Assembly: GCF_002135295.1 (NCBI RefSeq)
Contig: NZ_NEGG01000001.1
Span: 248,001 to 312,000 of the forward strand
From: Acinetobacter sp. ANC 5054
Lineage (GTDB): Bacteria; Pseudomonadota; Gammaproteobacteria; Pseudomonadales; Moraxellaceae
Direction: 5' to 3'
DNA length: 64,000 nt
Shown here one piece after another: positions 37,935 to 55,657 of the stretch (positions within the stretch are counted from its first letter, which is position 1; each line of letters begins with the position of its first letter). The notes below the pieces were generated by a model, which saw nothing but the letters and a program-made list of their open reading frames with translations, was not told the DNA's origin and searched no databases. The position numbers were made by a program, and so were the translations under genes.

Positions 37935-38230
37935 AAGTCACAAATATTGTCATATAGTTACTGATAATCAAATAAAACTATTGAACTGTAAAATAATAAA
38001 AAAGTTTACAGAATTATTTCTAATATCTGCAAACTTTCTTTTAACTAACTATATCTAAAGAATAATTTTATAAACTTTACAAAACCATATCTTTAGAGTG
38101 TCTCAAAATGGTTAACTATACAATAAACATAAAATAAATATTATTTTTAATAAAATTCAAAAACTTATATAATTAAAAATCAAACTTTTAATTTAAAAAT
38201 TTAATTTTTATACTTTTTTCTCTTAAATTC
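37935..38230. other. AT-rich intergenic stretch left of island 2
   Basis: Extremely AT-rich, no gene or clear signal seen on either strand. Confidence 0.5.
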
Positions 38231-38246
38231 ACCTATAAATACAATA
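38231..38246 (+). repeat. Left terminal repeat of island 2
   Basis: ACCTATAAATACAATA, matching 54921-54937 except for one missing G. AAATACAATA also recurs at 54965-54974 and 55031-55040. Confidence 0.5.
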
Positions 38247-38248
38247 AA

Positions 38249-38272
38249 AAGAGCTAGTAATAACTAGCTCTT
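38249..38272 (-). terminator. Terminator of the helicase/winged-helix operon
   Basis: 10-bp perfect stem AAGAGCTAGT/ACTAGCTCTT, loop 4 nt, T5 on the minus strand, 54 bp after the stop of the 462-aa gene. Confidence 0.75.
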
Positions 38273-38325
38273 CTTTAAAAAATAAAGATCTGAATAAAGA
38301 CAAGAATGATGTAACTCTTCACCCA

Positions 38326-39714
38326 TTAACCATTTTTCTTAAACATTGGACCAAAGCTAATTCCATTTTCATCTGTTGGTCGTTGCCATGCATCAAATAA
38401 ACTAACCAAACTACTGACCAGAGTACTATCGTAACTAATTGAACCGATTGGGAATGAGGTTAAGTAATCTGCTTCCGAATCCAACACATGTAGAATTATC
38501 ACAGCAAATTCGTTTTCAACTACAATTAATTCAAAATTACCATCAAGCAAACCTTCTTTAATACCGTAAAAATATTTTTGATGATCTTTTCCAATAATCT
38601 TTCGGTAATTTTGTACGGAAACACGATCTCGCTCATCTGACATCGATAAGAAACACTTTAGCTGTATTTCATCGTTTTGTTTATTTTTAAGTTGCCCTAA
38701 AGCACCGACAAATGTATTGAATCTAAGAGATTTACCCCAAAATGCATCATCTGGAGCTAACCAATAAATATTCTTTACAGGACGATTCTTCGCAAGAACA
38801 TCTTTGATCTTATTCAATATCAGCTTTGAATTACCTTGGCTATAACAAGGTCCAATAAACAAGTGATTTCCTTCATTTGCTTTGTTCTCTATAGGATTTA
38901 AGCTATCAAATAATGCGACTGGTGCCAAAAAACGACCATCTTTAAAATATTGGTGCAAATTTAATTGTTCAAAGCCCTCAAGGTTCTTCACGATATCTCG
39001 AATATTATTCCCTTTCTTACTCTGCCCTAATGCTTGATAAGTCTTATCTTTAAGCTCATCGCTCATAATAGAGTCCAAAACTTTTATAGGTTGTGGATCC
39101 GCTTGAGCATCTATATTAAGGTCTAGCGACTTACGTACAGTGCATTCCCTAACCTTCTTTACAGTTCCCATTTTGTAGATGGCTGGTCTACCATCCATTT
39201 TTTTTAGGGTGATAATGTCATCTTCAATGAGTTGATAAAATTGCTTCTGAAATCTATCTCGAACAATACTTTCACTATTTGCTGCATGTTCGCTTGAAGC
39301 GATTAGTTTTAAGCCGTACATATTAGTATCAGGATTCTGAGCTATGTAATTAAAATTAGTAAGCTCATAAACTAGACCATGTGTATGTTCCAAGATCGAA
39401 GCAACCTTAGGTATAGAATCCACAGTTGTAAAGTATTTCATTGATTTGTTCGTCAAATGAAATAACCCATCTTGTTTAAGCTCAATCTCGTTATTTGTAA
39501 TCAGTTGATCTAAAACTATCCGTGACTCTCTTTGATTCATACCCAAAAAGTTTGCAATGTTTTTGACCGACATTGGGCTGATACGCAGTAAACGCATAAT
39601 CATTGAATCAATAAATTTTGGCATTTGGCTTGATGTATAACTGAATTTTATTTCAAACTTCTGTGCCGGAATCAAAATATCAACATCATGATATGGGATG
39701 CTGTAATTACTCAT
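38326..39714 (-). CDS. Unknown 462-aa protein with N-terminal winged helix, partner of the helicase gene
   Basis: No family is recognised. Residues ~35-105 look like a winged-helix DNA-binding domain (IMRLLRISPMSVKNIANFLGMNQRESRIVLDQLITNNEIELKQDG). Residues ~150-190 may be a second one. The C-terminal third (~285-455) has alternating strands and helices (NHLFIGPCYSQGNSKLILNKI … IYWLAPDDAFWGK … LIVVENEFAVIILHVL) reminiscent of a PLD-like or Rossmann-type fold but without an HKD motif. Its start overlaps the 1681-aa gene by 8 bp, so both proteins are made together; it may be a sensor or DNA-recognition subunit (inference). Confidence 0.7.
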   Translation of the reverse strand: MSNYSIPYHDVDILIPAQKFEIKFSYTSSQMPKFIDSMIMRLLRISPMSVKNIANFLGMNQRESRIVLDQLITNNEIELKQDGLFHLTNKSMKYFTTVDSIPKVASILEHTHGLVYELTNFNYIAQNPDTNMYGLKLIASSEHAANSESIVRDRFQKQFYQLIEDDIITLKKMDGRPAIYKMGTVKKVRECTVRKSLDLNIDAQADPQPIKVLDSIMSDELKDKTYQALGQSKKGNNIRDIVKNLEGFEQLNLHQYFKDGRFLAPVALFDSLNPIENKANEGNHLFIGPCYSQGNSKLILNKIKDVLAKNRPVKNIYWLAPDDAFWGKSLRFNTFVGALGQLKNKQNDEIQLKCFLSMSDERDRVSVQNYRKIIGKDHQKYFYGIKEGLLDGNFELIVVENEFAVIILHVLDSEADYLTSFPIGSISYDSTLVSSLVSLFDAWQRPTDENGISFGPMFKKNG

Positions 39715-42700
39715 GACTGATACCTCGACTTGTCTTTGTTTTGATATTTGCGTTTAGTTTGAATTCATTTTTTCTATCAGCAATATATTGGTAACGTGTC
39801 CTATCGCTTGAATACTCCTTAATATAGTTAAGCACTTCACCAAGCGGTGATTCTTGATGTTTTGGCATACTCCATAAACGTGAAGCACCAAAAATAACTA
39901 AACGATCCATTGCCCTAGATAATGCAACATTAATTCGGTTTGGCATGTTCATGAATCCAATTTTGTTATCTGGGCTATTTCGGGTTACAGACAGAATGAT
40001 GATTCTATTCTCTTTCCCCTGATAACTATCGACAGTATCAATTTTTACTAATGATCTAAAATCTTCATTCCAAGCTTTCGAATTGAACTGCTTGCGTAAA
40101 TAACGCTTTTGTTCACCATACATACATATAATGCCAATCGGAGGCTCATTAGGCTTAGATCGTTCTTTTAACTCTTTTAGTAACTCCTCATCTGCATGAA
40201 TTTTTTCTAACAAACCAATAATCTTACGAGCTTCATGCTTGTTAAAGAAGGTTGTTCCAACACCATCACTAAATTTTTCAGACGTATCGACCCATGTGAC
40301 AGTAGAACGTAATTCTTGAACCGAACAATGCTGGTATATATTTGGTACGACTCGAACCATTTTCTCTTGGTAAGGCTTACCTAGAGGCTCAATAACGCCT
40401 GTTACTAATTCCTTATCATAGAAACACGCAGAAACCATTTCTCCAATTGCTGGAGCCATACGATATTGAACTAATAACTTACCCTGTACAGCCTTACCAT
40501 ATGGCGAATTAAATAATCGTTCAAAATCACTTTTTAAGTTCGCTTCAATACGGTTTTTTGTAAATCCTAACTTTCGACCAAGGGCTTTAGCATGTTCAGG
40601 TGAATATAATGGAGGTAATTGTTTATGATCTCCAACTAATAAAATGCGTTTAGCAGATTGCATCGCAATAGCCAATTCTGAAGAAATTGACCTCGCTGAC
40701 TCATCAATAATGACCCAATCGAATGATTGGTTCGCAATATCAATAGAGTGATGTCCTATACCTACACAGGTACCGCAGATAAATTGTCTAGTTTTAGAAA
40801 GGTATGTTTCGTAATTAGCATTTGGACTATCAATCAGTTGATCATAGTCGAAAGCAATTTGCACCAGGGCTTTAGCGTTATTTGCAGCCTTACCCTGAAC
40901 CTCAAAAGTCTCGTCCAGCATCTCCCATATTTGATTTTCTCGATCTGAGATCTGACGACTATTCCATCCTAATAATGAAGTATGCAATTCCTTTGAATAA
41001 TCCTTAAGTCTTTCGATAAGCTTCGTTGACAGGTTATTCCATTCAGCCTTGGAGATTAATTGATTATCTTCTGATTCTGTTGATATCCACATTCTAGATA
41101 AGTGGCCAAACAAATGTACTTTTAAAAACAAAGCACATGCCAAATAATCTCTGTCAACACCTATCGACTGACTCAAAGAAAGAACTCGATCTTCCATTTC
41201 CGTTAAGAATAGATTGCGATGTGTCGATATGATCGAATCAGAAAATACATCTTTTAGATTATTCGATACTGCATTCTCTCTGTTACTGAAACGTACAATC
41301 TCTAAAGGCGTATTTAGTCGGTGCGAGTGTTTTCTTATGCGTTCAGCAGCAGTATTAACAGCTTCATGTGATTGACTGACCATCAATACATTATTGACGT
41401 TTTGTTTTTCAAAAAGAAAGTGAACAAATGCTGCAATAAATTCAGTTTTACCTGTTCCTGGAGGACCTTGTAGAATTGAAACAGGCCCGTAGTTTATTAA
41501 TTTTCGAAAAGCCTCGCGTTGAAGATTGTTCAGACTGACAATAACCTCACCTTGCTCATTATGTTGATCATATCTCTCGAAGTCCTTATCAGTGACTGTA
41601 ATATCATAGTGAGTCGGTCTAATCTCTGAATTAGGCTCGAAATATTCTACCAAGTTTGGAATATCTGATTGTCTTCTTAGAATTTGCTCTAAAGCATTTT
41701 TTCTTTTCAAGAATGAAGATTTATCAGCTTTTGTTCTTAAATATAGAACTTCACCAACCTTAATTTTATCGGCGTGTTTAACACCTTTAACTCTTAATTC
41801 ACCTGCAAGTGAGTTCTGAATATCAATATCACCTACTCGAAACTCTCTATCTTCTCCATTAAAATCAATAGTCTTGTAAATTAGGCTTATAAGTGAATCT
41901 TTAGGAAACTTATCTAATACATCATTGTCATCTTCATATCTTGCAATGTAAATTTTACTATCAACCAAATGTAATGGTTGTGACAAGACGATATATGGTA
42001 ATGCCTCAGTCTCAGTCTCTAAAATTGCCTTCCATAGCTTCTTAGTATCAATATTTAGAGCAGCTAGTTTCTGAATATCATCGCTTAAGTTGTCATCTCT
42101 AGATTTTGATGAATGTTCTACTGGAAGTTGATTTTCTTGTGTAAATAATTGTTGATCTGCCTTGTAGTCTTCAGATAACTCCAAATTGTTACTTACATCA
42201 ACACTTTCATCTTGATCATTAGCTTGCTCTTGAAGGACATCATTAATAGCTGTTGAAAACTCATCAATTTTAAAAAGAAATTCTGATAGTTCAGCATATT
42301 CAGGTCTACCTACGGAATGTCTAATATCAAGAGCCACATTTATTTCAAGCATAGCCTGATCTATGACGTAATGTGGAACAACATCTGATTCACGCACTCC
42401 CGTTACAAAGCGTATAGTCTTAGTATTTGGATCTAGAATAAACTGTATTGAACCCCCAATACCTTGCATCTTAACAACAACATCATTTGCATTACGTCCC
42501 TTTTCTAATGTTACATAGACACGTTTATTATCTGCAAAAATTTTAAGCTCCGGAAATTTATCAGGTACAGGAATGCGAAGCGTTGGAGTATCACCATGAA
42601 TTTGTTCAGTTTCAATACTTTCTAATAACCGGTTTAGATCGCCTAAAGGATATTCTGATTCTTTAAGTTCTATATTTACAGCATCGCTAACCCATTTGAA

Positions 42701-44752
42701 TTCTAAACTATCATTTCCTATTTCAAATCCAAGAATTTCACACACCAGTCTCATAATTGCATAATTTTGACACTGTTCATTTGTAGGATTATCAATATAG
42801 GATGGATAATACGCACTTTCGTAATCTAGATATTCCTTAATATCAATGATGTCATTAAAAATAAAACTATTATCATCCAAATTGAATAAAACACTTTGAT
42901 GGTCAATTCTTCCGATTGGCAAACCTAACTTGTGTAGATGGATGATGGCCTCAATCAAATTAGCTGCCAAAAATAATCTTGATTCTTTCGTAGTTTCAAT
43001 TTGGTCAACAGTTATACCTTCAACCAACTTGTTAACTAGAAATAAAGATCTTGATTTTGATGAAATACCAAATCTTTCTATGCTTGGTAAATAGAATAAG
43101 TTTTGGGAGTTAGCTTCTTTAATACGTTCAAAAAAGTGCTGATATTTTAAAATATCGCTAGATGAAAATTCATTTACATGGACATCAGACCATTCTTTGA
43201 CACATAAGTCACCTGAACGATATAAGATAATGTCTCTCTCATCATCTTCATAAATTTCATCATCTTCCGGATATAATCTATTCAGCTTTTCTGACGTAAT
43301 ATATTCATTTAAACATGAAATATTCGCTATAAATTCTACTGCTTGAACAGGCCGTTTTGTATTGAACTCTCTTAGAAATTGGACAGCATCTTCGATTTCA
43401 AGATTTATAGCCTTTCTCACTAAATCCGCTAACCAATGGTCGCTATTCACACATATATTATTGAGAGCTTTTGGGGTTAAACGAATATTTAACCACAAAT
43501 GCCATGCGATAACCGCTAACATATAAGCGTCTTTTTTAAATGCTTGTACATTGGCAATTTTTGATTTTTGCCCATCTGCAATAAAGACTAAATCAGGCTG
43601 GAAATCACGAATATTATTAGTTATATTTTTTGAATCCGATGTCAAAAAATGTGAAATGGCTACATCTTTTTGAGGTGATATCCAAATACAATGCGAATTA
43701 ATATCTCCATGTGAGATACCAAGATTATGCATTTCAGAAAACTTGCTGAGTAAAATCTGAATTAGATTTAACTTATCTTCTTCATTCAAATTTGGACAGA
43801 TTGTCGTAATAAAATCATTAAACCTAAGATGACTTTGACGATACTCAACCAATTCATTGTACTGCTGAGTGATTTGATCTTCTTCTGGCATGATTAATGG
43901 AACTAGTGCCGTATTGTACAAATGAGTACTTTGCTTAAATTCAGCACTAATAACTCGCTCATGGTTTAACAACTCTGCTCTCATTTTAGGAGATTGAATA
44001 CTCAATTGGTGAAAATTTGAGAACATCCATTGTCTTATGATTGCCTTGTCAGAGCGTGAAATAGTCGAGGTAGCTTCGTATTCGGTATATAACTTTTGAG
44101 GATGACTTAGAAGCTCTTCATCTTGTTTATATTTTTGAACAATGATTCTTTTAGGTGGCGCACTTTTCTGTATAAAGATTTTATCAATGAGGTCGAAATC
44201 TTTATAAAGGTGTTGAGCATCTGGGTGTGGCTTAAATTCTTTATTAAATGAACTTTTATTGGCGAACTTTAAGAATTTATCAAGGCTAATGACATGCTTT
44301 TGTTCATCATCAGGTAAATTTGAAAAATTCACCTTGCCACACATTACAACAAAGAAATATACCCTTGGAACAAAGCCTGGATTACCCTTAAATTTATCTT
44401 TGAGTCCCTTTAACTTACTGACAAGGATAAATTGTTTTTGTCGTGTCAATGAAACAGGTGATACCCCCATATCACGCTCATCCATGTACCAATTACCATT
44501 GGCAGACTTAATTGATTTACCATTCCAGTCTTTCAATTCAATAATTATGAGGACACTGTTAGTCACTAAAATTAAATCAAACTCTCCCTCTTTTTTTGAA
44601 ATCGAATCAACTAAGGTATAGCCTGCATAACCATACCAAGGACTATTTTTTCGCATTTCATCTTCAGCACTAAATGCTTCTCGGATTTTGGAAATCGCTT
44701 TAGTTTCGTGGTGATGAAGCCCATTTGCTTGGGTTTTAATAATTAAAGACAT
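39707..44752 (-). CDS. NERD nuclease / kinase-like / SF1 helicase fusion (candidate defence effector)
   Basis: A 1681-aa protein. Residues ~10-170 form a NERD (PD-(D/E)XK-type) domain: EFDLILV (near 59) and IIIELKDWNGK (near 72). Residues ~215-480 look like a protein kinase with catalytic-loop-like LGISHGDINSHCIWISP (near 348). Residues ~490-730 repeat the fold with a decayed loop (IGRIDHQSVLFN). Residues ~1040-1660 are a UPF1/DNA2-type SF1 helicase: Walker A GPPGTGKTEF (near 1095), VIIDESARS (near 1350), GDHKQLPPL, QYRMAPAIGEM and NRINVALSRAMDRLVIFG. Related NERD-kinase-helicase fusions occur in bacterial defence loci. All nuclease and helicase motifs look intact. Activity against phage is inference. 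Confidence 0.85.
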   Translation of the reverse strand: MSLIIKTQANGLHHHETKAISKIREAFSAEDEMRKNSPWYGYAGYTLVDSISKKEGEFDLILVTNSVLIIIELKDWNGKSIKSANGNWYMDERDMGVSPVSLTRQKQFILVSKLKGLKDKFKGNPGFVPRVYFFVVMCGKVNFSNLPDDEQKHVISLDKFLKFANKSSFNKEFKPHPDAQHLYKDFDLIDKIFIQKSAPPKRIIVQKYKQDEELLSHPQKLYTEYEATSTISRSDKAIIRQWMFSNFHQLSIQSPKMRAELLNHERVISAEFKQSTHLYNTALVPLIMPEEDQITQQYNELVEYRQSHLRFNDFITTICPNLNEEDKLNLIQILLSKFSEMHNLGISHGDINSHCIWISPQKDVAISHFLTSDSKNITNNIRDFQPDLVFIADGQKSKIANVQAFKKDAYMLAVIAWHLWLNIRLTPKALNNICVNSDHWLADLVRKAINLEIEDAVQFLREFNTKRPVQAVEFIANISCLNEYITSEKLNRLYPEDDEIYEDDERDIILYRSGDLCVKEWSDVHVNEFSSSDILKYQHFFERIKEANSQNLFYLPSIERFGISSKSRSLFLVNKLVEGITVDQIETTKESRLFLAANLIEAIIHLHKLGLPIGRIDHQSVLFNLDDNSFIFNDIIDIKEYLDYESAYYPSYIDNPTNEQCQNYAIMRLVCEILGFEIGNDSLEFKWVSDAVNIELKESEYPLGDLNRLLESIETEQIHGDTPTLRIPVPDKFPELKIFADNKRVYVTLEKGRNANDVVVKMQGIGGSIQFILDPNTKTIRFVTGVRESDVVPHYVIDQAMLEINVALDIRHSVGRPEYAELSEFLFKIDEFSTAINDVLQEQANDQDESVDVSNNLELSEDYKADQQLFTQENQLPVEHSSKSRDDNLSDDIQKLAALNIDTKKLWKAILETETEALPYIVLSQPLHLVDSKIYIARYEDDNDVLDKFPKDSLISLIYKTIDFNGEDREFRVGDIDIQNSLAGELRVKGVKHADKIKVGEVLYLRTKADKSSFLKRKNALEQILRRQSDIPNLVEYFEPNSEIRPTHYDITVTDKDFERYDQHNEQGEVIVSLNNLQREAFRKLINYGPVSILQGPPGTGKTEFIAAFVHFLFEKQNVNNVLMVSQSHEAVNTAAERIRKHSHRLNTPLEIVRFSNRENAVSNNLKDVFSDSIISTHRNLFLTEMEDRVLSLSQSIGVDRDYLACALFLKVHLFGHLSRMWISTESEDNQLISKAEWNNLSTKLIERLKDYSKELHTSLLGWNSRQISDRENQIWEMLDETFEVQGKAANNAKALVQIAFDYDQLIDSPNANYETYLSKTRQFICGTCVGIGHHSIDIANQSFDWVIIDESARSISSELAIAMQSAKRILLVGDHKQLPPLYSPEHAKALGRKLGFTKNRIEANLKSDFERLFNSPYGKAVQGKLLVQYRMAPAIGEMVSACFYDKELVTGVIEPLGKPYQEKMVRVVPNIYQHCSVQELRSTVTWVDTSEKFSDGVGTTFFNKHEARKIIGLLEKIHADEELLKELKERSKPNEPPIGIICMYGEQKRYLRKQFNSKAWNEDFRSLVKIDTVDSYQGKENRIIILSVTRNSPDNKIGFMNMPNRINVALSRAMDRLVIFGASRLWSMPKHQESPLGEVLNYIKEYSSDRTRYQYIADRKNEFKLNANIKTKTSRGISHE

Positions 44753-44960: not shown

Positions 44961-45209
44961 TTCTAGATTTGCAACTTTTATTAAATTTAAAACTTGGTTA
45001 TATAGTTATGGGCCAATGCAATTGTGCACAAGCTCAAATTTAGGTAGGTTTTTTTTAGTTATCTTTCCTTGGCATTTTTAGCCAACAATAATTTATGTAT
45101 GAAATTTAACTGCACCAAAAACATAAGTAAAGAGCTTTTTTCAAAAAATTAATTTTTATACCATCTGCTTATATGCTCAAAAACTTATTCGTTAAATCTT
45201 CTACATTGT

Positions 45210-45428
45210 TTAATCGAAACTCATAGGAAGTAATTCATGTAAATTTACTTCAAGAGCTTTCGCTAAATCATAGAGTTTTTCGAGTGTTATATTTACTTCT
45301 CCACGCTCAATACGCCCCATATAGCTACGATCGATATTACAAAGCAGAGCTAACTTTTCCTGTGAAATATTTTTCTCTTTTCTATGTTTCCGAACTAATT
45401 GTCCAAAAGCGATACTAAGTTCTGACAT
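45210..45428 (-). CDS. XRE-type helix-turn-helix regulator
   Basis: A 72-aa single-domain HTH_3 protein: FGQLVRKHRKEKNISQEKLALLCNIDRSYMGRIERGEVNITLEKLYDLAKAL. It is the size and type of restriction-modification controller (C) proteins. It is divergent from the 163-aa gene and sits between the helicase unit and the rest of the island. The repeated GGACTATA operator at 45470-45496 is its likely binding site, giving autoregulation (inference). Confidence 0.88.
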   Translation of the reverse strand: MSELSIAFGQLVRKHRKEKNISQEKLALLCNIDRSYMGRIERGEVNITLEKLYDLAKALEVNLHELLPMSFD

Positions 45429-45469
45429 TTCAATTCAATTGATCAAAAAACAGAACTATCACTATTTGA

Positions 45470-45496
45470 GGACTATATATCCACGGACTATAATCC
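45470..45496. promoter_or_regulatory. Direct-repeat operator between XRE gene and 163-aa gene
   Basis: GGACTATATATCC (45470-45482) and GGACTATAATCC (45485-45496) repeat 15 bp apart in the divergent promoter region. TATAAT within the second copy could be the -10 box of the rightward gene, so binding there would block it. Confidence 0.55.
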
Positions 45497-45524
45497 TCTT
45501 TTATTATTTTATGCTGTGATTGTT

Positions 45525-46007
45525 ATGTCTATAAGCAATATGCCTATGTTTGAAATTTTTCCACCACTTTTTAACAGTAAAAAGATTGAGCAATGGACAG
45601 CTAATGAGTTTTGGAAACACTTAAAACTTAGTAAAAAAGAACGCAATCGCTTCAATCGACAACGCATGTATCGGTTACTTAGAAAATTAGTGGAAGATGG
45701 TTATTTAACTAAAGAAACCAATTTAGTTAACCCTCGTTTTTCAACGTTTTCAGAAACCAATAAGCTTGATCAATTACGTGAAATTACGGAGGTATCTTTG
45801 GATTTTATACAAATGAGTCACTCTAAAGAAGAAACTCAAAAGAAAATCTCAATACTAGAAAAACAATTAAAAAGCTTTTCTTTATTAGAAAAGAAATTTC
45901 CCAATTCAGCTATTAGAATTAATGTTGAAAAAAATAAATGCATTGAGGCATTAACTGATCTCAATGCATATAGTACAGCTTTAAATTGCATCTTAACCTC
46001 TCTCTAG
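45525..46007 (+). CDS. Small winged-helix-like protein, possibly a Gmt-island accessory
   Basis: A 160-aa protein starting MSISNMPMFEIFPPLFNSKK; a GTG three codons upstream (45516) is the alternative and no strong RBS marks either. Residues ~20-70 (WTANEFWKHLKLSKKERNRFNRQRMYRLLRKLVEDGYLTKE) fit a winged-helix DNA-binding domain. Residues ~95-160 form a coiled coil (EETQKKISILEKQLKSFSLLEKKF). It is the only rightward gene of the island and converges on the PLD-like gene. It could be the GmtX-type member of the trio or a regulator; I cannot decide. Confidence 0.65.
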   Translation: MSISNMPMFEIFPPLFNSKKIEQWTANEFWKHLKLSKKERNRFNRQRMYRLLRKLVEDGYLTKETNLVNPRFSTFSETNKLDQLREITEVSLDFIQMSHSKEETQKKISILEKQLKSFSLLEKKFPNSAIRINVEKNKCIEALTDLNAYSTALNCILTSL

Positions 46008-46025
46008 AGGTTAGGAGATAAAAAA

Positions 46026-49000
46026 TTATTCAGCCGAATTGAAGGTTAACTCCTGATTACTTAATAAATTTTCACTCCACTCAACAAAATTTATTAAGTC
46101 ACTCTCACTATACCAATCTTCTAAGGGACGAATGGCGACAAGCCCATTTGAAAGTTCCAATAAATTATCAAGTTGTTCATGTTTTTCACTATTCTTTTGA
46201 TTTAGATAATATCTACATAATTTAGTAAATACTGAAATCCACATCGAAATTTTAAGGGCATCATTCCAACGAGACCAATTAGAAGTACTAGCAAGTGGTC
46301 GTTGAACGATTCTTCTTTGATTCTCAAAAATATCTTTAACATCATTCAATGAAGATAACTGGAATGAAAAGCCACTATTTGCCCATAAATATGCACTAAT
46401 ATTGATTAGATTTCCTTCTCTTTCTGAAGAAAAAATTAATGGTCTATTAGGCTCTTTCAACTCTAATATTTCGATAAAATCTTTAAGCCAAATCTTACAA
46501 GCATCATCAAAACCAATACGCTTATTATCCAATAATGGCTGAATAATATCCCTAAATAGCCACAGACCACTCCACGTAAGCTTATGCATGTGGCCTCTTG
46601 CAGCATCAATAAAAGTTTCTAAATTTTCATAAGCAATATGCTCTGGAAGTACAATCCATAACACATCCAATATATTTTTATAAGTATCAGCAGAATCAGT
46701 GTTCTCATGATTTCTATTAAGAATCCATGCAATAAACTGAATTTTTTCAGCATATTCAAAATTCGCTAAACATTTATTAATTTTAGCAAGATCGGAGGAT
46801 GAAATTATACTCTGTTCCAAAGCATTCCAACCCAACCACCTTAAAAACGCAATTTTGCTCGCAAGTAATATCTGTAATTGTTCATTTGAAATAGAATTAA
46901 ATTCAAGATTTAATGAAATTTCACTAACTATCTGACCAAGCAAAGATAATTCAATTATCTTAGTTGAATTAAAATCTGTGACTAGCTCTCTCTCTGCTAT
47001 ATCAATGAGTAACTTCGGTTCGTATTGCCATAGATATTTGATTGTATAAAATTCGGCCCAAGTTAAAGCACTATACTTTGTTGATTGGAAAAAATTTCGT
47101 ACCCATATTGAACTTTGAGTTAACTCTACTAGTGTTTTTCTAAAGTAAGTTGGGTCAATTACTGAAACTTCGTTATCATCATTAAGATGATTTCTTTGAA
47201 ATGAATTTGACAAAAATTTTGAAAGGAATAATAAAAACTTACTTTCAGTCTTCAACTTTTCTAAATTAGAATCACCAGTTGTTGTACGGGCTAATATCTC
47301 TCCTATAACTTTCCATGCCTCCATAAAATCAACAAGTTCACCATCAATTTGATTTAAACAAAGAAATAATCCTTCATCTGGTAAGTCATGGAGTGATGCA
47401 TTTTGTATCACACCCAATTCATTCATTTTTTTTATTAAATTATCTCCAAATAAACCTTTTAACACAGGCTTCTGTAGCCATACACTTAATATTTTTCCAG
47501 ACAATTCATTATTCAAAAATTCTAAAGGTTCGTATATTTTATTTTTTATAGAAATATTATTTGAATCAAATATTATAGAAATAGAACTATTATTATTTTT
47601 AAGAGATGAAGAATTTTTTAAGCTTTTTATGAGATCAAAAGTATATTGGTTTATTTTGTAAAGTACATCTATTGGAATAGGAGTGACTAATAGTGGATAA
47701 TCTTCTGTCGCCTTCTGAAAGGAATTAGATAAATGATAACCCTCAATAGGTAGTCCATGATCTCCTATTATCAATATATATCTATCATGCAAATAGCCTG
47801 CTTTTAATCCATAGATTTTAATTTTTTTCCTCTGTAATAATTTCCTATTTTGCTCACAGTTGATTAGTAATTTATCAACCCCTATTTTTACAAAGTTATC
47901 AGTCTTTTGATGATTAGTAGCACTTGAATCTCGAGGTTTAGGTAGGCTTCGAAAAATTGAATATTCAGCATTTGACGATGCACTAAGCATTAGTAAATTT
48001 AACCCAACATCTTCAAAGTATGGGTCGAAAATAGCAATATGGTTATTTGGATATTTTACTAATAGCTCTTTAAACCATTCAACGAATAGTAACTTTCCTT
48101 CGCCATTATCTGAGCGAATGAAGAATTTCCCACTTGATTTAGGAGGATTTAACTTATGAAATATCGATCTCAAAGTACGATTTTCTTCAGTCCATGGATC
48201 AATCCTATCTCCTATAATTCGATTTTCTGAAATATTCCCACTATGTTCTAGAGTTAGAGCAGCCTCTACACGGTTACCCATATTTGAATTAACAGTTTTT
48301 TCAAGCCAATCAAACTTTAAAGTTTTTGATTGATTACCAATCACATGCATTCGAAAATTAACTTCCTTAATGTAAGTAATCCTCCAACTGCAACACAAAT
48401 ATCCTTCGGTTAAATTATTCTCTTTAAATCCAAAAACATCAATTTTTGTAGCGTCTGTAATTTTGAATAATTTTTCATCTATATCAAAATTATATTCGAA
48501 TATTCCATCACCTATAGATTGAGCCACACCAATTTTTGAAGAAAATACTTGATTATTATTCTCACACGCTAAATTAAATTGAAATCTATTAAAGGCTGGC
48601 ACTTGAATGGACGTAAACTTAATACTTAACCCTTCATACTTAGTTCTTTCTACAGAAAGTAAATTTTTTTCGTTATCATCCAGTGTTGGAAATACCAATA
48701 ACTCCAATTCACCCAATCTATTTATATCAGTGTCTCCAAAGTCCATGCCTGTATCTTCTTTAAGTCTTTTTAAGACGAGAGAAGTAAGACCAACACTATA
48801 ATTTCCACAAAAAAAGAATATAGATCGCTTATCATCGCAGCTTATTGCAGCACTCAACGCACCAGCACCACCATGAGGGCTAAGTAAAGAATTCTGAATA
48901 GATGCATCTCGATTCAGTAAATAGATAGTAGGTCTAAAAACTGAGTTCATTTTTATAAGAATAGTATTACCAAATCGTTTACTTAAATTATCTGAAATTT

Positions 49001-49334
49001 TTAAGTTTAATGCTGTACTAATATTATTAATTGAATGACCATCACATAATTTTGTCAGAAGTTCTCGACACTTTGAACTCTCAATTAATAAGTTTAATTG
49101 AGTAACACTAGCACGAAAATTCTCGACACTTTGAGAAGTATCCTTGTCACTAAAGGACCAAGTGTTATTAAAAAAGCTGTATGGAACCAAACGCCCGTAT
49201 ACTATTCTGTTCTCCACAAGATCATCTTTTTTTATTTGTAGTATCCACAGTTGTAAAGCGCAAGGTTTGCTTTTAAATAAGAATAATCTTTGAAGGCGAC
49301 TATCTTCTATTAAGTCGCTCAATTGATAAGACAT
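46026..49334 (-). CDS. VPA1262-like large protein with PLD-type domain
   Basis: A 1102-aa protein. The N-terminus (~1-170, CALQLWILQIKKDDL … LSPHGGAGALSAAISCDDKR) recalls the VPA1262 family N-terminal domain known from the Vibrio island VPaI-6. Residues ~410-580 look like a phospholipase-D-type nuclease half: HIAIFDPYFEDVGLNLL, then YLHDRYILIIGDHGLPIEGYHLSNSF (near 525), where HxR replaces HxK as in several PLD-like proteins. The C-terminal ~450 residues are helical repeats. It is 101 bp downstream of the 138-aa gene. Probably a cytoplasmic nucleic-acid-acting defence protein; family recall is from memory. Confidence 0.65.
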   Translation of the reverse strand: MSYQLSDLIEDSRLQRLFLFKSKPCALQLWILQIKKDDLVENRIVYGRLVPYSFFNNTWSFSDKDTSQSVENFRASVTQLNLLIESSKCRELLTKLCDGHSINNISTALNLKISDNLSKRFGNTILIKMNSVFRPTIYLLNRDASIQNSLLSPHGGAGALSAAISCDDKRSIFFFCGNYSVGLTSLVLKRLKEDTGMDFGDTDINRLGELELLVFPTLDDNEKNLLSVERTKYEGLSIKFTSIQVPAFNRFQFNLACENNNQVFSSKIGVAQSIGDGIFEYNFDIDEKLFKITDATKIDVFGFKENNLTEGYLCCSWRITYIKEVNFRMHVIGNQSKTLKFDWLEKTVNSNMGNRVEAALTLEHSGNISENRIIGDRIDPWTEENRTLRSIFHKLNPPKSSGKFFIRSDNGEGKLLFVEWFKELLVKYPNNHIAIFDPYFEDVGLNLLMLSASSNAEYSIFRSLPKPRDSSATNHQKTDNFVKIGVDKLLINCEQNRKLLQRKKIKIYGLKAGYLHDRYILIIGDHGLPIEGYHLSNSFQKATEDYPLLVTPIPIDVLYKINQYTFDLIKSLKNSSSLKNNNSSISIIFDSNNISIKNKIYEPLEFLNNELSGKILSVWLQKPVLKGLFGDNLIKKMNELGVIQNASLHDLPDEGLFLCLNQIDGELVDFMEAWKVIGEILARTTTGDSNLEKLKTESKFLLFLSKFLSNSFQRNHLNDDNEVSVIDPTYFRKTLVELTQSSIWVRNFFQSTKYSALTWAEFYTIKYLWQYEPKLLIDIAERELVTDFNSTKIIELSLLGQIVSEISLNLEFNSISNEQLQILLASKIAFLRWLGWNALEQSIISSSDLAKINKCLANFEYAEKIQFIAWILNRNHENTDSADTYKNILDVLWIVLPEHIAYENLETFIDAARGHMHKLTWSGLWLFRDIIQPLLDNKRIGFDDACKIWLKDFIEILELKEPNRPLIFSSEREGNLINISAYLWANSGFSFQLSSLNDVKDIFENQRRIVQRPLASTSNWSRWNDALKISMWISVFTKLCRYYLNQKNSEKHEQLDNLLELSNGLVAIRPLEDWYSESDLINFVEWSENLLSNQELTFNSAE

Positions 49335-49435
49335 AAGTTACCCTTTATTCTATTTAAACTAAATAAAGCAATAATAACAATATGTTTAAAAATTCAATAT
49401 ACTTTAAAATTCATAATATTAGGTATTGATGGAGT

Positions 49436-49852
49436 TTATTTTTTCACCAATGGAAGATCTAAAGTGGCTAAATCTACATTTGGCATTTGAGATAAGTTGT
49501 ATTGCCATCTTCTATATTGCTCAACCCACACGTTTTCTCGATCTTTCAGCAATTCCTCTAAGTGTTTTATTTGGTTTCTTAGATCTTCGTTTTCTTTAAT
49601 CAACATATCAATAGTTACATCATTCGCCGATGTAATAGTCTTCGATTTTGCTTCTCTTAATGTTTTCTTTCGAAAATTAAAAGCCTGCTTTACAGGCTCA
49701 TAGCTCATTAAAGTAAATTTTGAAATTGAAGGTCTATTCAATGCACTAGCGACCGATATTGCAAAATTATCCCAAGTTAACTTTCCAGACCATTTATTTA
49801 AAATGGACTCGATAATTTTCATTTCATTTACATCAATCAGCTTGGGTTTCAT
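49436..49852 (-). CDS. VPA1267-like small coiled-coil protein of the recombinase operon
   Basis: A 138-aa basic protein. The N-terminus (LTWDNFAISVASALNRPSISKFTLMSYEPVKQAFNFRK) looks like an HTH with a conserved-looking RPSISK-type loop, then a coiled coil (TIDMLIKENEDLRNQIKHLEELLKDRENVWVEQYRRW). It overlaps the 715-aa recombinase gene by 4 bp, so it is co-translated. It resembles the VPA1267 type that accompanies these recombinases in Vibrio islands; likely an accessory DNA-binding factor for recombination. Confidence 0.65.
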   Translation of the reverse strand: MKPKLIDVNEMKIIESILNKWSGKLTWDNFAISVASALNRPSISKFTLMSYEPVKQAFNFRKKTLREAKSKTITSANDVTIDMLIKENEDLRNQIKHLEELLKDRENVWVEQYRRWQYNLSQMPNVDLATLDLPLVKK

Positions 49853-51996
49853 AATTCACCTGTTAATAAAGCCAAAAACGAAGTACTTGACTCCTTGATT
49901 ATTTGTGCAGAAATTGGATTTTTTTCATTAACTGCATTCACTAGTTTTTGCTCCCCTAAAGCTATTTTGGTCAAACTGATATCTAACTCTTCAGGAATAC
50001 GTAATATTAAACCATCAGGTAATTGATCATTTTCTAAATATTTTATTAAGGTCTTAATGATTGCTAATTTTTTTCCATGATAGATTAACCATGAATTTGC
50101 CCCAGCAAATCCGTCATTGGTTGCAGCGGCTGCTCTATTCAGTTCATCTTGATAAACAACCTCTAGTTCCTTGAGTTTTTCAAGATTTTTTGGAAGGCCT
50201 TTCACACATGCATGTTCTTTACAACTAATACATTCGCCTGCCTTTGTACAAGGAGTCATTGTCCAATCATGTTCACAATATCCATAACCAGACACCTGAA
50301 CAGTACCTACACGATCTTTATGACCTAACATCTTAAACGTTACAGGTACGTTTAATTTCACCGCTGTTAAAGATTTCGTACCGTCTAAACTTTCTAATCC
50401 TAACTTAGTTAGTAATTTTCTTGATTCTTCTGTTTTTTCCTCAAGTGTTCTCAAATCATATGCTAGGTTATCTTCAACACGGCTTCGACCAGCATACATT
50501 GCAAGATCTAATGAGTTCATTTCTCCACGTTCAGCTTCTGTAGAGAGCCATACACGTATTTGATGGGAAGTGATTACTAAATTTGTCCCATCTTCATTAA
50601 CTAAACCTAATTGGCTAAAAAGCGAATCTTTACCTGATATTCTTTCATGGATAGCACCTAGGGCATCATTTAATAAATTTAGATTGGGGCACTCAAAACT
50701 GTATAATTTAGGTGCAAATACCGCATGAAATTCATTTTCACGTACTAGGCATAGCAATTCAGATACAGGTTTACCAGTTTCAGGTATAAATGGCCAATTT
50801 GTAAATTTCTCTTTATATTTATCGATTGTATACTTAGCTAAATCTCTATAAGTTATACATTTTTTTCCTTTTATTAGCTTATGAATCCATTTTTGTGTAA
50901 ATACCTGAGCGAATACTTCAGTATCAGTCAATCGCCATGCTTTAGTATCCGAAGGAAGGCTTTGTATACACATTGCTCCTGCAAACTGTTCAATAGTCAA
51001 AGGTTCATCTTCTCCATGATCAGGAGAAGTAATGCATTCTTCATGACGATAGAATTCATCAGGATGCTCTATAGCCCATTGAGTAGCTTTTCGAGCAGGC
51101 TCTCCTATTTCTTTGAGCCTTTCAATTGCTAATTGAATTGTTGGAACAATATAAGGGTGAATAGGCTTCTTAATTAATCCTCCTCCCTTTTCAGCCTTCC
51201 ATGCTATATTCCATAATTGATCAAGACCTGTATTTTTCTTTTCTATTTCACTTAGTTCTTCACTTGATAAACAATCTACTGTAAGAAAACCAAGTTCGCC
51301 TCCTCGGCTAGGGGCTGCCAAAAGCAACGCAGATTGTGCTGAATAAAATTTTTGATAAGGAGTTTTTGCTAATCTAAATGCATCTGCTAAAGCACCTATC
51401 TCAAAAGAGCTGAGCAAACGTTCTTCTTGCCATTCTCTATCTTCCTTAGAAGTCCCTTGTGCTTTGTTACCCGGTCTTTTCCACGAATTTTTCCACGTAG
51501 GGATAGTAATATTAATTTTAAATTTTTTTAAATCCTCTAGAAAAGCTTCTAGCATTTGACCATAACGGTATCTTGAAGCTTCAGAACTACGCTCATAAAT
51601 TAATTCCGATATCTTTCTTACAACAATCCCATCAATTAACAGAACATCAGCTTTCAAGTAAATTTGAATCAAAGCATCATGACTAGCTTTTAATACCATC
51701 ATCATGTTGCCAGGGTTAGTCGCTTTCCAGGTCTGATTATCGCGTACATAAGCTTTTGCGAAATCAAGGAAAGGCTGTTGCATAGGTGTACCAGTTTTTT
51801 TCCCTTTAGGAGCCAAACCAGTGAACTCCATTGACTGTGATCTGCCATTAGCTAATCTATGTTTCCAATTTGAACTTGCAAATCCTCCTTGATCTTCATA
51901 GATACTTAACTCATTCTTAGCACGTAAAATGAAATCATTTAAATTTTTCTGACAATCTAATGCATGTTTTGGTACAAATTGAACAAAATTACTCAT
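49849..51996 (-). CDS. Large tyrosine-recombinase-family protein (third of the trio, GmtZ/VPA1269-like)
   Basis: A 715-aa protein with a divergent tyrosine recombinase core: Arg in LAAPSRGGELGFLTVDCL (near 232), His/Arg in TSHQIRVWLSTEAERGEMN (near 480) and a late Tyr in EDNLAYDLRTL (near 512). After the core comes a Cys/His cluster GYCEHDWTMTPCTKAGECISCKEHACVKG (~585-615), likely zinc-binding, and a helical tail. It overlaps both neighbours by 4 bp. It probably cooperates with the two upstream recombinases to move the island; whether its own active site works is uncertain. Confidence 0.75.
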   Translation of the reverse strand: MSNFVQFVPKHALDCQKNLNDFILRAKNELSIYEDQGGFASSNWKHRLANGRSQSMEFTGLAPKGKKTGTPMQQPFLDFAKAYVRDNQTWKATNPGNMMMVLKASHDALIQIYLKADVLLIDGIVVRKISELIYERSSEASRYRYGQMLEAFLEDLKKFKINITIPTWKNSWKRPGNKAQGTSKEDREWQEERLLSSFEIGALADAFRLAKTPYQKFYSAQSALLLAAPSRGGELGFLTVDCLSSEELSEIEKKNTGLDQLWNIAWKAEKGGGLIKKPIHPYIVPTIQLAIERLKEIGEPARKATQWAIEHPDEFYRHEECITSPDHGEDEPLTIEQFAGAMCIQSLPSDTKAWRLTDTEVFAQVFTQKWIHKLIKGKKCITYRDLAKYTIDKYKEKFTNWPFIPETGKPVSELLCLVRENEFHAVFAPKLYSFECPNLNLLNDALGAIHERISGKDSLFSQLGLVNEDGTNLVITSHQIRVWLSTEAERGEMNSLDLAMYAGRSRVEDNLAYDLRTLEEKTEESRKLLTKLGLESLDGTKSLTAVKLNVPVTFKMLGHKDRVGTVQVSGYGYCEHDWTMTPCTKAGECISCKEHACVKGLPKNLEKLKELEVVYQDELNRAAAATNDGFAGANSWLIYHGKKLAIIKTLIKYLENDQLPDGLILRIPEELDISLTKIALGEQKLVNAVNEKNPISAQIIKESSTSFLALLTGEL

Positions 51997-53546
51997 GCTA
52001 TTTCTTCCATTGTAATTCGCTTATCACATGCATCTAAAATGGCTTTCACATGGGCCAACTGTAGGTCAAATGACCTTAAAATCAATTCACTGGCTCCATC
52101 TTTCTCTCGCTGTTCCATCTCTTCTAATAACTCTAAAAACAGCTCATCCCAAGGTGCATGTAAAAGTGGTTGGAATTTATTGCACAATAAACATGCTTTA
52201 ATTCCAGCTTGACAAGAAGGAGAGCCACCACAGTTACCAATGTGCTCATTATTAGATTTATAAACCCTACTACTAGGGTCATTTCCTCTTAAAGCCTCAT
52301 TTTCATTTTCTATTAATCTTCCTTCAAATTGAGCTGCTAAAAAGGCCATAGCATCTTTCATTTTGTCAAAGATACGGGCAGCTAATTCAGCAGTATATGC
52401 AGTGTAAACTTTTAATTGTTGTGTATCTGAATGGTCCATTAGATAAGCCAATTGGACACCAGTGATACCATGGCGTACCAAATTAGTCGCTCGCGTTCTT
52501 CTGCATCTTATTGGAGTAAAATGAATATATTCTCCAGTCCGTTCAGAAATAGCTTCACATTTTTTCGACACACTATTACTTAGAGAGTTATGTTTACTGG
52601 CACCCCCATGCAAAAAATCAGGAATAGTTTTTAACTTGTCTCTAAGATCCTCAACTGAATTAACACTATTTAAATTCTTATTATTCAAGAAAATAGGGAT
52701 TTGATTTAAATCTTCTGATTCAATTTCGGGTAAATATCTTTTAACTTTTATTTTTACCTCATTAATTAAATTCATTAAAATTAAATACATATCTTCAGTA
52801 ATGCTTAAACTGCGCATTTCTCCTCTGAATATACCTCCTCGTTGTTTTGCGCGTGGGATGTTTAACTCGTACTTCATTCCATCTAAACTATTTTGAATAG
52901 TTAAATCACATATTCTTAATGCTAAGATTTGTGTAGGTCTACGAGCTGTAGCATATATGGTATAAAACCATGCAAACTCTTCTAAAGTGAGTTTTCCTAT
53001 ATTAAAAGCATTTCCAGCCCACACTAATAAGAATTGTTGTTCCGTTAAAGTATATGGACCTGTATAAGGACAATTTTGTAAAACTGCTTTTCCCTTGATA
53101 TTGCCGCTTAGAATTAGACGATCTAAAGTATTTTCCAGTCCCTTTTCCAACCCCTTAAAGTCCCACTCTAACCAGCATCTTAATAATGCTCGAATTGTTC
53201 CAAGTTTGTACTCATTCTCTTGATTTAAAGTTGCTTTGAGACTCAAAATCAATTTTGATGTAATCAATCCTTCTTGATACATATCAGAAGATAACAAATA
53301 TGTTTTTGTATAATTCCAACAATTGAATGTATGGTGAGAAGATACCTCTTCTGCAAGCCTTGCGATTGTTAATTTAAAGCCTTCATAAACTACTTTATCA
53401 ATCTCTTGATTGACTAGTCTCCAATTAATAGTTCTATTTTTATCTAAAATCCATACATCCTCATTCAAATTAAATGCATATCCTGCCTTGGAGTATCTCG
53501 TCGAATATGTCTGTTCTGTTTGAGAAAAACTAAGTTCTGGCATCAT
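51993..53546 (-). CDS. Tyrosine-recombinase-family protein (second of the trio)
   Basis: A 517-aa protein. The recombinase core shows Arg in YATARRPTQILALRICDL (near 197), the box II pair in TPIRCRRTRATNLVRHG (near 350; Arg-x-x-Arg where the usual pattern is His-x-x-Arg) and DHSDTQQLKVYTAYTAE (near 375) with His and candidate nucleophile Tyr. A C-terminal cluster HIGNCGGSPSCQAGIKACLLCNKFQPL (~440-470) suggests zinc binding. Coupled by 4-bp overlaps to the genes on both sides. Confidence 0.8.
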   Translation of the reverse strand: MMPELSFSQTEQTYSTRYSKAGYAFNLNEDVWILDKNRTINWRLVNQEIDKVVYEGFKLTIARLAEEVSSHHTFNCWNYTKTYLLSSDMYQEGLITSKLILSLKATLNQENEYKLGTIRALLRCWLEWDFKGLEKGLENTLDRLILSGNIKGKAVLQNCPYTGPYTLTEQQFLLVWAGNAFNIGKLTLEEFAWFYTIYATARRPTQILALRICDLTIQNSLDGMKYELNIPRAKQRGGIFRGEMRSLSITEDMYLILMNLINEVKIKVKRYLPEIESEDLNQIPIFLNNKNLNSVNSVEDLRDKLKTIPDFLHGGASKHNSLSNSVSKKCEAISERTGEYIHFTPIRCRRTRATNLVRHGITGVQLAYLMDHSDTQQLKVYTAYTAELAARIFDKMKDAMAFLAAQFEGRLIENENEALRGNDPSSRVYKSNNEHIGNCGGSPSCQAGIKACLLCNKFQPLLHAPWDELFLELLEEMEQREKDGASELILRSFDLQLAHVKAILDACDKRITMEEIA

Positions 53547-54910
53547 TTTTCTTGCCCCTTCTTAATATAGGAATCCATTTTTTCAAGCTCACGCTTCAAT
53601 AACTTTTCTGCTTGTTCTTTTGTATGACGAAGATTATAAACTTGGGCAGAATGTTCACTTTTATGACCATTGATATACATTCTTTGCTGAATTTCTTTTT
53701 TCTCAGAAATCACCTCATCAATACGGCCATCCTGAGATGCTTTATGATTGTGTTCATCAATATTATTTGAAAATCGATTATTGAAATCATGTCTAAAGCC
53801 ATGCCTAGTTACTCTCTTTTTAACCACGAACCCATTCTTCTTAATGAAATCAGCTAATTCTTCATTTCCAGAAATTTTTTCAACAATTCTTGAAAACTGA
53901 GTTAAAGAGAGAGGATGTCCTTTACTAACCCCCTTATAAGATATAAATAAGAATTTGTGAGTATGAGCATTTGGGATAAAACGACGTTCTTCTAAAACAT
54001 ACTTACGAAGCTGATCGCTTAAATCCTGATTTATAGGCAAATCTCTTTCTAAAGTTTTAGCATTCGGTTCATCAGTTCTAAATTTATCTTCTGGATCATC
54101 ATGCCGTGATTGGATCTGAACTACATTTCTTGCAAAATCAATATCTGAAACTTTTAATTGCAGAACCTCTCCTGCTCTCATACCAGTTTCATAAAGCATC
54201 CATAGAAGTAAATAATTTCTTTGCCTTACAGATTTTGTATAAGGATTATAAATATTCGAGGGTTCTGCTATTTCCATAACATGTTTGAAAATATCAGGGT
54301 GAGGGGCCTTCTTATTAGGGTCGGAACTTCTAGTCTTCGAACCACCATATCTTTCTTTTTGTTTTAATATTTGAGCCTTTGTATTTTCAATGATATCTAG
54401 ATAATTATAAAAAGAAGGTTTATTTCTCAAAATATTAATGGCCACAAATTCAAAGAAATTAGCAAATATTGTTATTCTATTTATCGCGTGTTCTTTCTCC
54501 ACTGTAGCTGCTGGTATTTTTCTAATAGGAAATATAATTTTTAAATTTTGATCATTACTTCGATGCTCTGTTTTTTTTCTCAAATTTCTTCGTGCTTCTT
54601 TTGTAGTTAATTTACAATGATCTCTTAATTTCTGAATTTCCAAGTCACTAAAGAAAAGAACTTGTGAAGACATATTTTTTTGACTAGCAGCTCTAATAAT
54701 ACGTTCAGAGATTCTCTCACCAATGCTCATTTCCCAGATATAGATATGAGCCAAATGATTGAGATACGCTTTTTGTGTTGTATGCTTTTCGGAACGAACA
54801 TTCGTAGTTAAAAATAAAGTAGTCCAAAAATCAGGAAGACCAAGACTATTTATTAATAATCCAAATCTTTCTCCACCTTCTGCAATATAGTTTTTACGAT
54901 GTAAGCTCAA
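53543..54910 (-). CDS. Tyrosine recombinase (first of the trio, GmtY-like)
   Basis: A 455-aa site-specific recombinase with the most complete active site of the three. Arg is in YETGMRAGEVLQLKVSDIDF (near 245), His and Arg in RVTRHGFRHDFNNRF (near 372), then His in INGHKSEHSAQVYNLRH (near 418) with the nucleophile Tyr. An N-terminal core-binding-like region includes QKAYLNHLAHIYIW. It is first in the operon and starts 11 bp inside the right terminal repeat, the usual place for an island's integrase. The gene after it overlaps by 4 bp. Confidence 0.85.
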   Translation of the reverse strand: MSLHRKNYIAEGGERFGLLINSLGLPDFWTTLFLTTNVRSEKHTTQKAYLNHLAHIYIWEMSIGERISERIIRAASQKNMSSQVLFFSDLEIQKLRDHCKLTTKEARRNLRKKTEHRSNDQNLKIIFPIRKIPAATVEKEHAINRITIFANFFEFVAINILRNKPSFYNYLDIIENTKAQILKQKERYGGSKTRSSDPNKKAPHPDIFKHVMEIAEPSNIYNPYTKSVRQRNYLLLWMLYETGMRAGEVLQLKVSDIDFARNVVQIQSRHDDPEDKFRTDEPNAKTLERDLPINQDLSDQLRKYVLEERRFIPNAHTHKFLFISYKGVSKGHPLSLTQFSRIVEKISGNEELADFIKKNGFVVKKRVTRHGFRHDFNNRFSNNIDEHNHKASQDGRIDEVISEKKEIQQRMYINGHKSEHSAQVYNLRHTKEQAEKLLKRELEKMDSYIKKGQEK

Positions 54911-54920
54911 GTACTTAACA

Positions 54921-54937
54921 ACCTAGTAAATACAATA
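54921..54937 (+). repeat. Right terminal repeat of island 2
   Basis: ACCTAGTAAATACAATA. It runs into the inverted repeat AATACAA-TAT-TTGTATT (54929-54945), the symmetry expected of a tyrosine-recombinase core site. Confidence 0.5.
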
Positions 54938-54987
54938 TTTGTATTATATAAAGTTATTAAACAAAAATACAATATTTTTCAAAGAAA

Positions 54988-55019
54988 TAAAAAAAAGAAC
55001 TTGATATAAATCAAGCTCT
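54988..55019 (-). terminator. Terminator of ssb
   Basis: 10-bp stem AGAACTTGAT/ATCAAGCTCT whose single mismatch becomes a G-U pair only in the minus-strand RNA, followed there by U8. It therefore belongs to ssb and places the island end to its left. Confidence 0.8.
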
Positions 55020-55057
55020 TTCTCTTTAATAAATACAATAATTAAGTATTGTACAAT

Positions 55058-55657
55058 TTAAAACGGTAAGTCATCATCTAAATCTGCAGGTGCTGGTGTC
55101 GGCGCAGGCTGTTGTTTCGGCGCAAAACCACCTGGGTTGTTGTTGCCATAACTATTGCCTTGAGCAGGTTGATTATTGCCATAACCACCTTGATTATTAC
55201 CGCCCTGATTGCCGTAACCGCCAGACTGGTTATTGTTATAACCGCCTTGGTTATTGCCACCTTGCTGATTGTTAAAACGTGGTTGATTAAAATCACCACC
55301 TTGACCTTGCTCACCTTGTTGGCGATTGTTGTCAAGCATCTGCATTTGTTCGCCACGAATTTCAGTTGTGTAGCGCTCTTGACCGCTTTGGTCTGTCCAT
55401 TGACGTGTACGAAGTGAACCTTCGATATACACTTTAGAACCTTTGCGCAAATATTGCTGTGCAATTTCACCTAAACGATTATGTAGCACGATACGGTGCC
55501 ATTCAGTTTGCTCTTTACGCTCACCTGTATTTTTATCAGTCCATGAATCGCTTGTTGCAATTGAGAACTGAGTGAGAGAACCACCATTTGGGAAAGTTTT
55601 TGTTTCAGGGTCACGACCTAAAGTACCAACTAAAATGACCTTATTTACACCACGCAT
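55058..55657 (-). CDS. ssb: Single-stranded DNA-binding protein
   Basis: A 199-aa SSB. The OB fold occupies residues 1-110 ([25 protein letters not shown] … [36 protein letters not shown]). A Gly/Asn/Gln-rich linker (~118-180) holds [15 protein letters not shown] repeats, and the acidic tip DDDLPF recruits replication and repair proteins. It binds single-stranded DNA as a tetramer during replication, repair and recombination. Downstream of the MFS gene on the same strand. Confidence 0.97.

Follow-up and report, generated by a model that had tools for sequence, protein, structure and literature searches.

Which kind of mobile element owns a run of three recombinase-like genes and a small fourth gene lying next to ssb in Acinetobacter sp. 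ANC 5054, and which of the encoded proteins may act as recombinases? We addressed this question for a stretch of 64,000 nucleotides (contig NZ_NEGG01000001.1, positions 248,001 to 312,000; hereafter the window, with positions counted from its first letter). The element is almost certainly a GInt, a genomic island with the genes ginABCD, whose insertion point is the 3′ end of the Acinetobacter ssb and whose 16.9-kb body carries defence genes (Table 1). This type of island is already in print, and the island in the window is an ordinary new example; the less expected part of the finding, as read from aligned relatives, is that GinC appears to keep almost the whole catalytic set of a tyrosine recombinase.

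All four gin open reading frames (ORFs) are intact and lie on the minus strand, and each pair of neighbouring genes has a 4-bp ATGA in common (53543-53546, 51993-51996, and 49849-49852), in agreement with the overlapping four-gene operon described in the sequence-only reading of this DNA; the next gene begins ~100 bp past ginD. GinA and GinB matched Phage_integrase (PF00589) in Pfam with E-values of 9e-16 and 2e-6, respectively, and GinB also scored 435 bits (cutoff 350) against NF041502 ("site-specific integrase") of NCBIfam, a family matched by all 31 of the 31 aligned GinB members. GinC (715 aa) presented zero Pfam or NCBIfam matches at E 0.1 and no match in a sequence search against solved structures, and none of 37 aligned GinC sequences matched NCBIfam at E 0.001. 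Compared with the nearest relative (genome G097), the ratio of nonsynonymous to synonymous substitution rates (dN/dS) was 0.19 for ginA, 0.12 for ginC, and 0.06 for ginD, and 0.13 for residues 1-340 of ginB, the remainder of which is interrupted in G097; judged by these ratios, the gin genes are under purifying selection. The low dN/dS together with the gene order that recurs in relatives (see below) argues that the operon is not a chance arrangement.

Table 1. Features of the ssb-linked island and its surroundings (window positions)
Feature	Position	Strand	Evidence
ssb, target gene	55058..55657	-	ORF list, sequence; ends LPF-stop
attL 6-bp core CCGTTT, Pro-Phe codons of SSB tip	55061..55066	-	sequence, relatives, empty sites
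Terminator-like hairpin at element left end, placed to stop ssb transcript	54989..55026	-	1 found, shuffle mean 0.0
ginA, tyrosine recombinase, 455 aa, TTG start	53543..54910	-	ORF list, PF00589, alignments
ginB, tyrosine recombinase, 517 aa	51993..53546	-	NF041502, alignments, structural model
ginC, large protein with predicted tyrosine-recombinase fold, 715 aa	49849..51996	-	structural model, conserved residues
ginD, small 138-aa protein weakly matching coiled-coil families	49436..49852	-	ORF list, Pfam
VPA1262-family protein, 1102 aa, cargo	46026..49334	-	NF040699, 963 bits
163-aa protein, cargo, no family match above cutoff	45516..46007	+	relatives in genus
MkoA of Mokosh-type defence, 1681 aa, cargo	39707..44752	-	PDLC03921, 1768 bits (PADLOC)
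MkoB, 462 aa, cargo	38326..39714	-	PDLC03923, 354 bits (PADLOC)
AT-rich 3′ end of element, last 214 bp, G+C 0.173	38112..38325	-	composition
attR core copy CCATTT	38106..38111	-	sequence, relatives
Left-end remnant of another, older GInt family, left of attR	37993..38111	-	sequence identity

As described in the available text of Bardaji 2017 (PMC5385486), GInts carry ginABCD at one end, variable cargo, and an AT-rich far end, and are bounded by short imperfect direct repeats, with several lineages, unrelated to one another, placed at the end of ssb; excision and integration of Pseudomonas GInts were both shown there to require all four gin genes. The available part of PMC10121019 names GInts a Tn6571-family transposon, and PMC12829572 contained nothing on GInts. 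The window element shares these traits: GinA and GinB carry a catalytic recombinase domain, GinC is a recombinase relative, and short imperfect direct repeats are present, the left one overlapping the end of ssb with the product unaltered. The proposal of a multi-subunit integrase was thus essentially right, given the identity of the operon as a GInt ginABCD and the need of the Pseudomonas GInts for all four genes. A scan for GinC in named bacterial genomes yielded 77 loci, in which profile searches found ginA in 73, ginB in 75, ginC in 77, and ginD in 75; all four genes were present in 71 loci, each time in the order A-B-C-D on one strand (71/71). Among the 61 loci with an ssb match (16 of the 77 were without one), ssb invariably lay on the same strand, at most 400 nt from the ginA frame, and ended in Pro-Phe (61/61). 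Within the genus, a GinC match was found in 19 of 175 genomes, including that of ANC 5054 itself. One of these genus genomes (G085) carries two gin operons (L064 and L065) that are equally identical to the window; only one of them is located at ssb. A gin-like operon is also found directly past a plasmid-borne ssb on P. aeruginosa plasmid pPAD8 (L172:4666-10432).

The same architecture bears on two other classes of multi-recombinase elements. SE elements, as presented in the available text of PMC10214605, likewise carry four genes at one end, which code for a pair of catalytic recombinases, an odd protein resembling recombinases, and a small protein with a coiled coil, and the logic of their 6-bp footprint is alike; however, their order is intA-tfp-intB-srap, with the odd protein second, whereas the odd, Pfam-negative protein is third here, SE and GInt proteins are reported in that text to form separate clusters, and the ssb site with its many ssb-linked relatives fits published GInts. 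Having set SE elements apart by description, we consider it very improbable that the window element is one of them. Slimmer still is the chance of a RIT (recombinase in trio) or Tn554-like element. According to the available part of PMC3414803, RIT elements have three overlapping recombinase genes, and Tn554 combines a long and a normal recombinase with a small TnpC-like protein, which resembles what we found; but the RIT archetypes in the available descriptions have RitA, RitB, and RitC only, with recombinases of 315-410 aa, as compared to 455, 517, and 715 aa plus a 138-aa protein in the window, Tn554 is listed there with TnpA, TnpB, and TnpC only, and insertion at the ssb tip is described for GInts. 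RIT and Tn554 were also set apart by these descriptions.

Given that the element is read as a GInt, we asked what its three large proteins retain of a recombinase active site, positions being read from alignments in which length limits kept 72 of 73 GinA, 74 of 75 GinB, and 72 of 77 GinC sequences. The catalytic set of GinA is complete (R245-K285-H370-R373-H416-Y425); among its relatives, R245, K285, R373, and Y425 are present in 72/72 and H370 in 71/72, while position 416 is Trp in 48, His in 23, and Gln in one. GinB keeps R203, K234, R349, H372, and Y381, with I346 replacing the first His of the HxxR motif; its catalytic box is therefore I346-R-C-R349 and not the RRTR that the sequence-only reading had picked out. 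These five positions read R-K-R-H-Y in 67 of 74 aligned GinB relatives, the exceptions being H372 replaced by Gln in four and by Tyr in one, one sequence with S234 and F381, and one with two unknown residues. The first-His column of GinB is variable and holds His in 0/74 aligned relatives; a His is present in the divergent L218. Other divergent GinB proteins have Asn in the R203 column (L222 and L223), a gap in the K234 column (L225), or Gln (L221) or Val (L226 and L228) in the H372 column, and the divergent GinA proteins of L222 and L223 carry Lys and Asp where others carry His and Trp.

In GinC, R231, K270, H478, R481, and Y513 are present, and the only change is that of the third-box His to Arg (R504). 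The HQIR motif noted earlier for the third protein therefore does include H478 and R481, but this description was incomplete, as R231, K270, and Y513 are also kept; nor is the claim supported that a near-complete catalytic set is confined to the first protein, with five of the six residues kept in GinC and five in GinB. R231, K270, R481, and Y513 were found in 72/72 GinC relatives and H478 and R504 in 71 each, so that the full RKHRRY pattern is present in 70 of 72 (the exceptions are L133, with Asn for H478, and L141, with His for R504). The distances R481-R504 (23 residues) and R504-Y513 (9 residues) recur in 69 of 73 GinC sequences, the window included, and matching distances of 23 and 9 residues are found in 74 of 75 GinB sequences. 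XerD has the same two distances.

This pattern extends to more distant GInts. RKHRRY was present in 12 of 12 divergent GinC sequences, which were hand-chosen (11 of the 22 other matched genomes plus one second copy; 3 of 12 beside ssb). Across all 22 other genomes, 19 had a GinC frame covering the six columns, with R231, R481, R504, and Y513 in 19/19 and H478 in 18/19 (Gly in one); the Lys column was alignment-dependent in four of these (Arg or Asn), three of which read Lys otherwise. The remaining three genomes comprised two with GinC pieces only and one without a usable frame. One divergent GinC reading RKHRRY, from S. chloritidismutans AW-1, is encoded in a gin operon, with all four genes in the order A-B-C-D, that points away from an ABC transporter gene, a neighbourhood like that of the GInts studied by experiment according to the available text of PMC5385486. 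The parts available of two papers state that GinC misses the first Arg or lacks catalytic residues; R231 was found here in 72/72, 12/12, and 19/19 sequences. The published description of GinC therefore probably needs correction, on the strength of these alignments, and we do not take the difference as a failure of GInt membership because R231 is also present in the GinC beside the ABC transporter gene. No report of the GinC RKHRRY pattern was found among the open-access papers listed, as judged by titles and abstract openings.

The C-terminal Cys clusters noted earlier in the second and third proteins proved to be real and conserved in relatives. The GinB cluster (C439, C445, C452, and C455; C-x5-C-x6-C-x2-C) is present in 74/74 aligned relatives, and C574, C583, C589, and C592 of GinC, which are part of a C-terminal Cys/His cluster spanning residues 574-597, in 71/72, a count that is partly biased, since one of the two GinC search patterns covered residues 592-599.

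Because sequence searches found nothing for GinC, its fold assignment rests on an AlphaFold model and its Foldseek and VIA matches. The GinC model had a mean predicted local distance difference test score (pLDDT) of 84.3 and a predicted template modelling score (pTM) of 0.63, and the GinB model had values of 84.5 and 0.66; in keeping with the proposal that these proteins are recombinases, rather than lacking such a fold, both models matched tyrosine recombinases best and ranked them first. For the GinB model, Foldseek matched Cre, XerA, and integron integrase 2a3v with E-values as low as 4e-6. The GinC model matched Cre and XerH in Foldseek (E = 1e-4), and matched XerA (Z = 14.4, root-mean-square deviation [rmsd] 14.6, 271 residues aligned), XerH (Z = 14.0, rmsd 4.2, 292 aligned), and the Tn1549 integrase (Z = 13.4, rmsd 4.2, 287 aligned). 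A point against leaning on these values is that mostly helical models can score Z 13-14 without a clear relative, so that Z alone is not decisive. The matches cover approximately residues 70-534, the part past ~535 being hardly covered. In the model, a short helix follows just after R231, a strand lies on either side of K270, H478 opens a helix, and Y513 closes one. The model matches, the uniform ranking of recombinases, and the residue spacing together support the predicted tyrosine-recombinase fold of GinC.

The element spans ~38112-55060 (16,949 bp) and has a G+C content of 32.6%, as compared to 38.7% and 43.5% in the measured flanks. Its left end provides the ssb stop codon after the Pro-Phe tip, leaving the SSB tip unchanged; on the minus strand this junction reads ssb...TTA-CCGTTT-TAAATTGTACAATA, with the arm TAAATTGTACAATA at 55047-55060, while the right junction reads TATTGTATAGTTAA-CCATTT-TGAGAC, with the element-side arm TATTGTATAGTTAA at 38112-38125. 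The right end was placed by comparison with relatives because a pattern search with TTAAAACGGTAARTC (3 mismatches) was unusable (5 matches vs. 5.84 expected). The right ends of five Acinetobacter genomes have TWTTRTATRGTTAA-CCNTTY in common, a pattern composed after inspecting the ends in the window, G097, and G115, and, besides the window, L057, L058, L059, and L060 show a matching arm and core. Candidate ATTGTATTT end repeats were rejected as not clearly above chance window-wide (5 vs. 2.5 expected, a count attained in 10 of 100 shuffles). In the stretch of the left-end hairpin (Table 1), no promoter-like match was found (1.5 expected). Staggered cuts of 6 nt have been proposed for GInts (available text of PMC5385486), and from this proposal and the repeats we infer that strand exchange would occur on the six core bases.

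For an empty-site comparison, the ssb region of 29 other species of the genus was compared with window positions 35.6-36.5 kb (a peroxiredoxin gene and upstream DNA). This DNA lies at most 1.5 kb from ssb in 19 of the 29 species, at ~0.25 kb or less in 12 of these and with 1.2 kb or more between in the other 7, so that related species show the site empty or nearly so. The window has ~1.7 kb extra between this stretch and the GInt, including a gene (36714-37724) for a 336-aa protein with a Tle4-immunity C-terminal domain (PF18426). The interval directly left of attR (37993-38111) aligns over 99-122 bp, at 80-85% identity, with the left ends of six ssb-adjacent GInts from a second Acinetobacter family (family 2), and is read as a GInt remnant rather than as chromosome. 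No gin remnant of this older island was found; gin protein queries taken from a single family-2 GInt matched only ginA, ginB, and ginC of the window (E up to 0.01). The right end of the window family abuts like older-GInt sequence in G166 and G001, so that, of the five genomes carrying this gin family, three have the element between ssb and another GInt end (the window, G166, and G001; not G097 and G115). Because insertion leaves a complete ssb tip and stop, the target would be regenerated each time, which would explain such stacking. G035 and G042, considered as possible gin-less elements, have left-end-like sequence but no matching right end and were classified as relics; relics of this kind, GInt-like left ends without gin genes or a matching right end, lie past ssb at L073:980-1360 and L074.

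The cargo comprises the four genes listed in Table 1. MkoA combines a NERD domain with an SF1-type helicase (Pfam AAA_11, AAA_12, and NERD). G097 carries the same island with extra DNA at three places (before ginA, in ginB, and in the VPA1262 gene). A. haemolyticus CIP 64.3 (G115/L078) has the same four cargo genes at 80-97% identity but gin genes at only 56-81%, a contrast that suggests past exchange of cargo and recombination module. Different cargo was seen behind related gin operons. GInts as carriers of defence genes have been reported in E. coli (available text of PMC10121019). In each of the window, G097, and G115, this GInt carries the VPA1262-family protein along with Mokosh, and the VPA1262-family gene is possibly an undescribed defence gene. 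The 163-aa ORF, which is convergent after ginD in A. tianfuensis, was considered as a fifth gin gene and rejected, as it was present in only 4 of 77 gin loci (flanks of 10 kb) vs. 39 of 175 genus genomes. In a second defence cluster of the window (8609-17549), type I restriction-modification genes accompany a gene that PADLOC reports as HEC-06-like.

By analogy with Pseudomonas GInts, GinA, GinB, GinC, and GinD would act jointly on attL and attR, strands would be exchanged across the 6-bp Pro-Phe codons of ssb, and the excised circle could re-insert at an ssb tip. The third-box Arg of GinC is kept near-perfectly across widely diverged GInts. We give even odds to a division of labour in which GinA is the main nuclease, GinC, whose third His is an Arg, has no purely structural role but adds a second nuclease that is slow or strand-specific, and GinB and GinD organise the complex. 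With somewhat less assurance, we propose that GinC may be catalytic with a fixed third-box His-to-Arg change and most GinB proteins may show a complementary loss of the first His, giving three differently tuned active recombinases, with ssb as a self-renewing target for stacking.

Several observations weigh against this overall interpretation. All empty sites belong to other species of the genus, none to the species of the window, and a further 1.2 kb or more intervenes in 7 of the 19. The exact cut positions within CCGTTT are deduced rather than measured. The GinC residue counts conflict with the published statements, and the DSM 4166 protein lies outside our sample. Mobility of the window element is predicted from its sequence, and the element could be inactive despite intact genes. 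This last point leads to the reading of the island as a decayed and immobile GInt whose gin genes no longer work, which concerns activity and not identity: in G097, insertions of extra DNA break up the sister element at three places, and single left-end relics without gin genes occur, but in the window four gin genes and both ends are intact, with dN/dS values of 0.06-0.19 vs. G097, and we regard such decay as unlikely.

Taken as a GInt with the residues described, the island has several implications. Both the ssb location and defence cargo have already been published for GInts (available texts of PMC5385486 and PMC10121019). The residue pattern of GinC contradicts two papers and makes the question of which recombinase cuts which strand directly testable; if true, three differently tuned recombinases could underlie the missing empty site and the strand bias of GInt and SE movement. 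Resolving the insertion point to the Pro-Phe tip codons of SSB would explain how very different GInts share one site, and landing between ssb and an older GInt offers an uncomplicated way in which defence genes can accumulate at ssb.

Compared with known systems, the window element resembles published GInts in having ginABCD at one end, variable cargo, an AT-rich far end, and an ssb-end insertion with an unchanged product, and differs from them in its host and cargo (Acinetobacter; Mokosh and VPA1262), in a GinC that keeps R-K-H-R-R-Y whereas the published one misses the first Arg, and in its position in front of an older GInt end. With SE elements, as far as the available text of PMC10214605 describes them, it shares the number of recombination genes (four), a 6-bp core flanked by imperfect inverted-repeat arms, and target-site specificity. 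Tn554 and RIT elements also have several tyrosine recombinases in one operon (available texts of PMC3414803 and PMC10214605), but no ginA/B/C/D set is listed for them in those texts and the RIT archetype recombinases are shorter.

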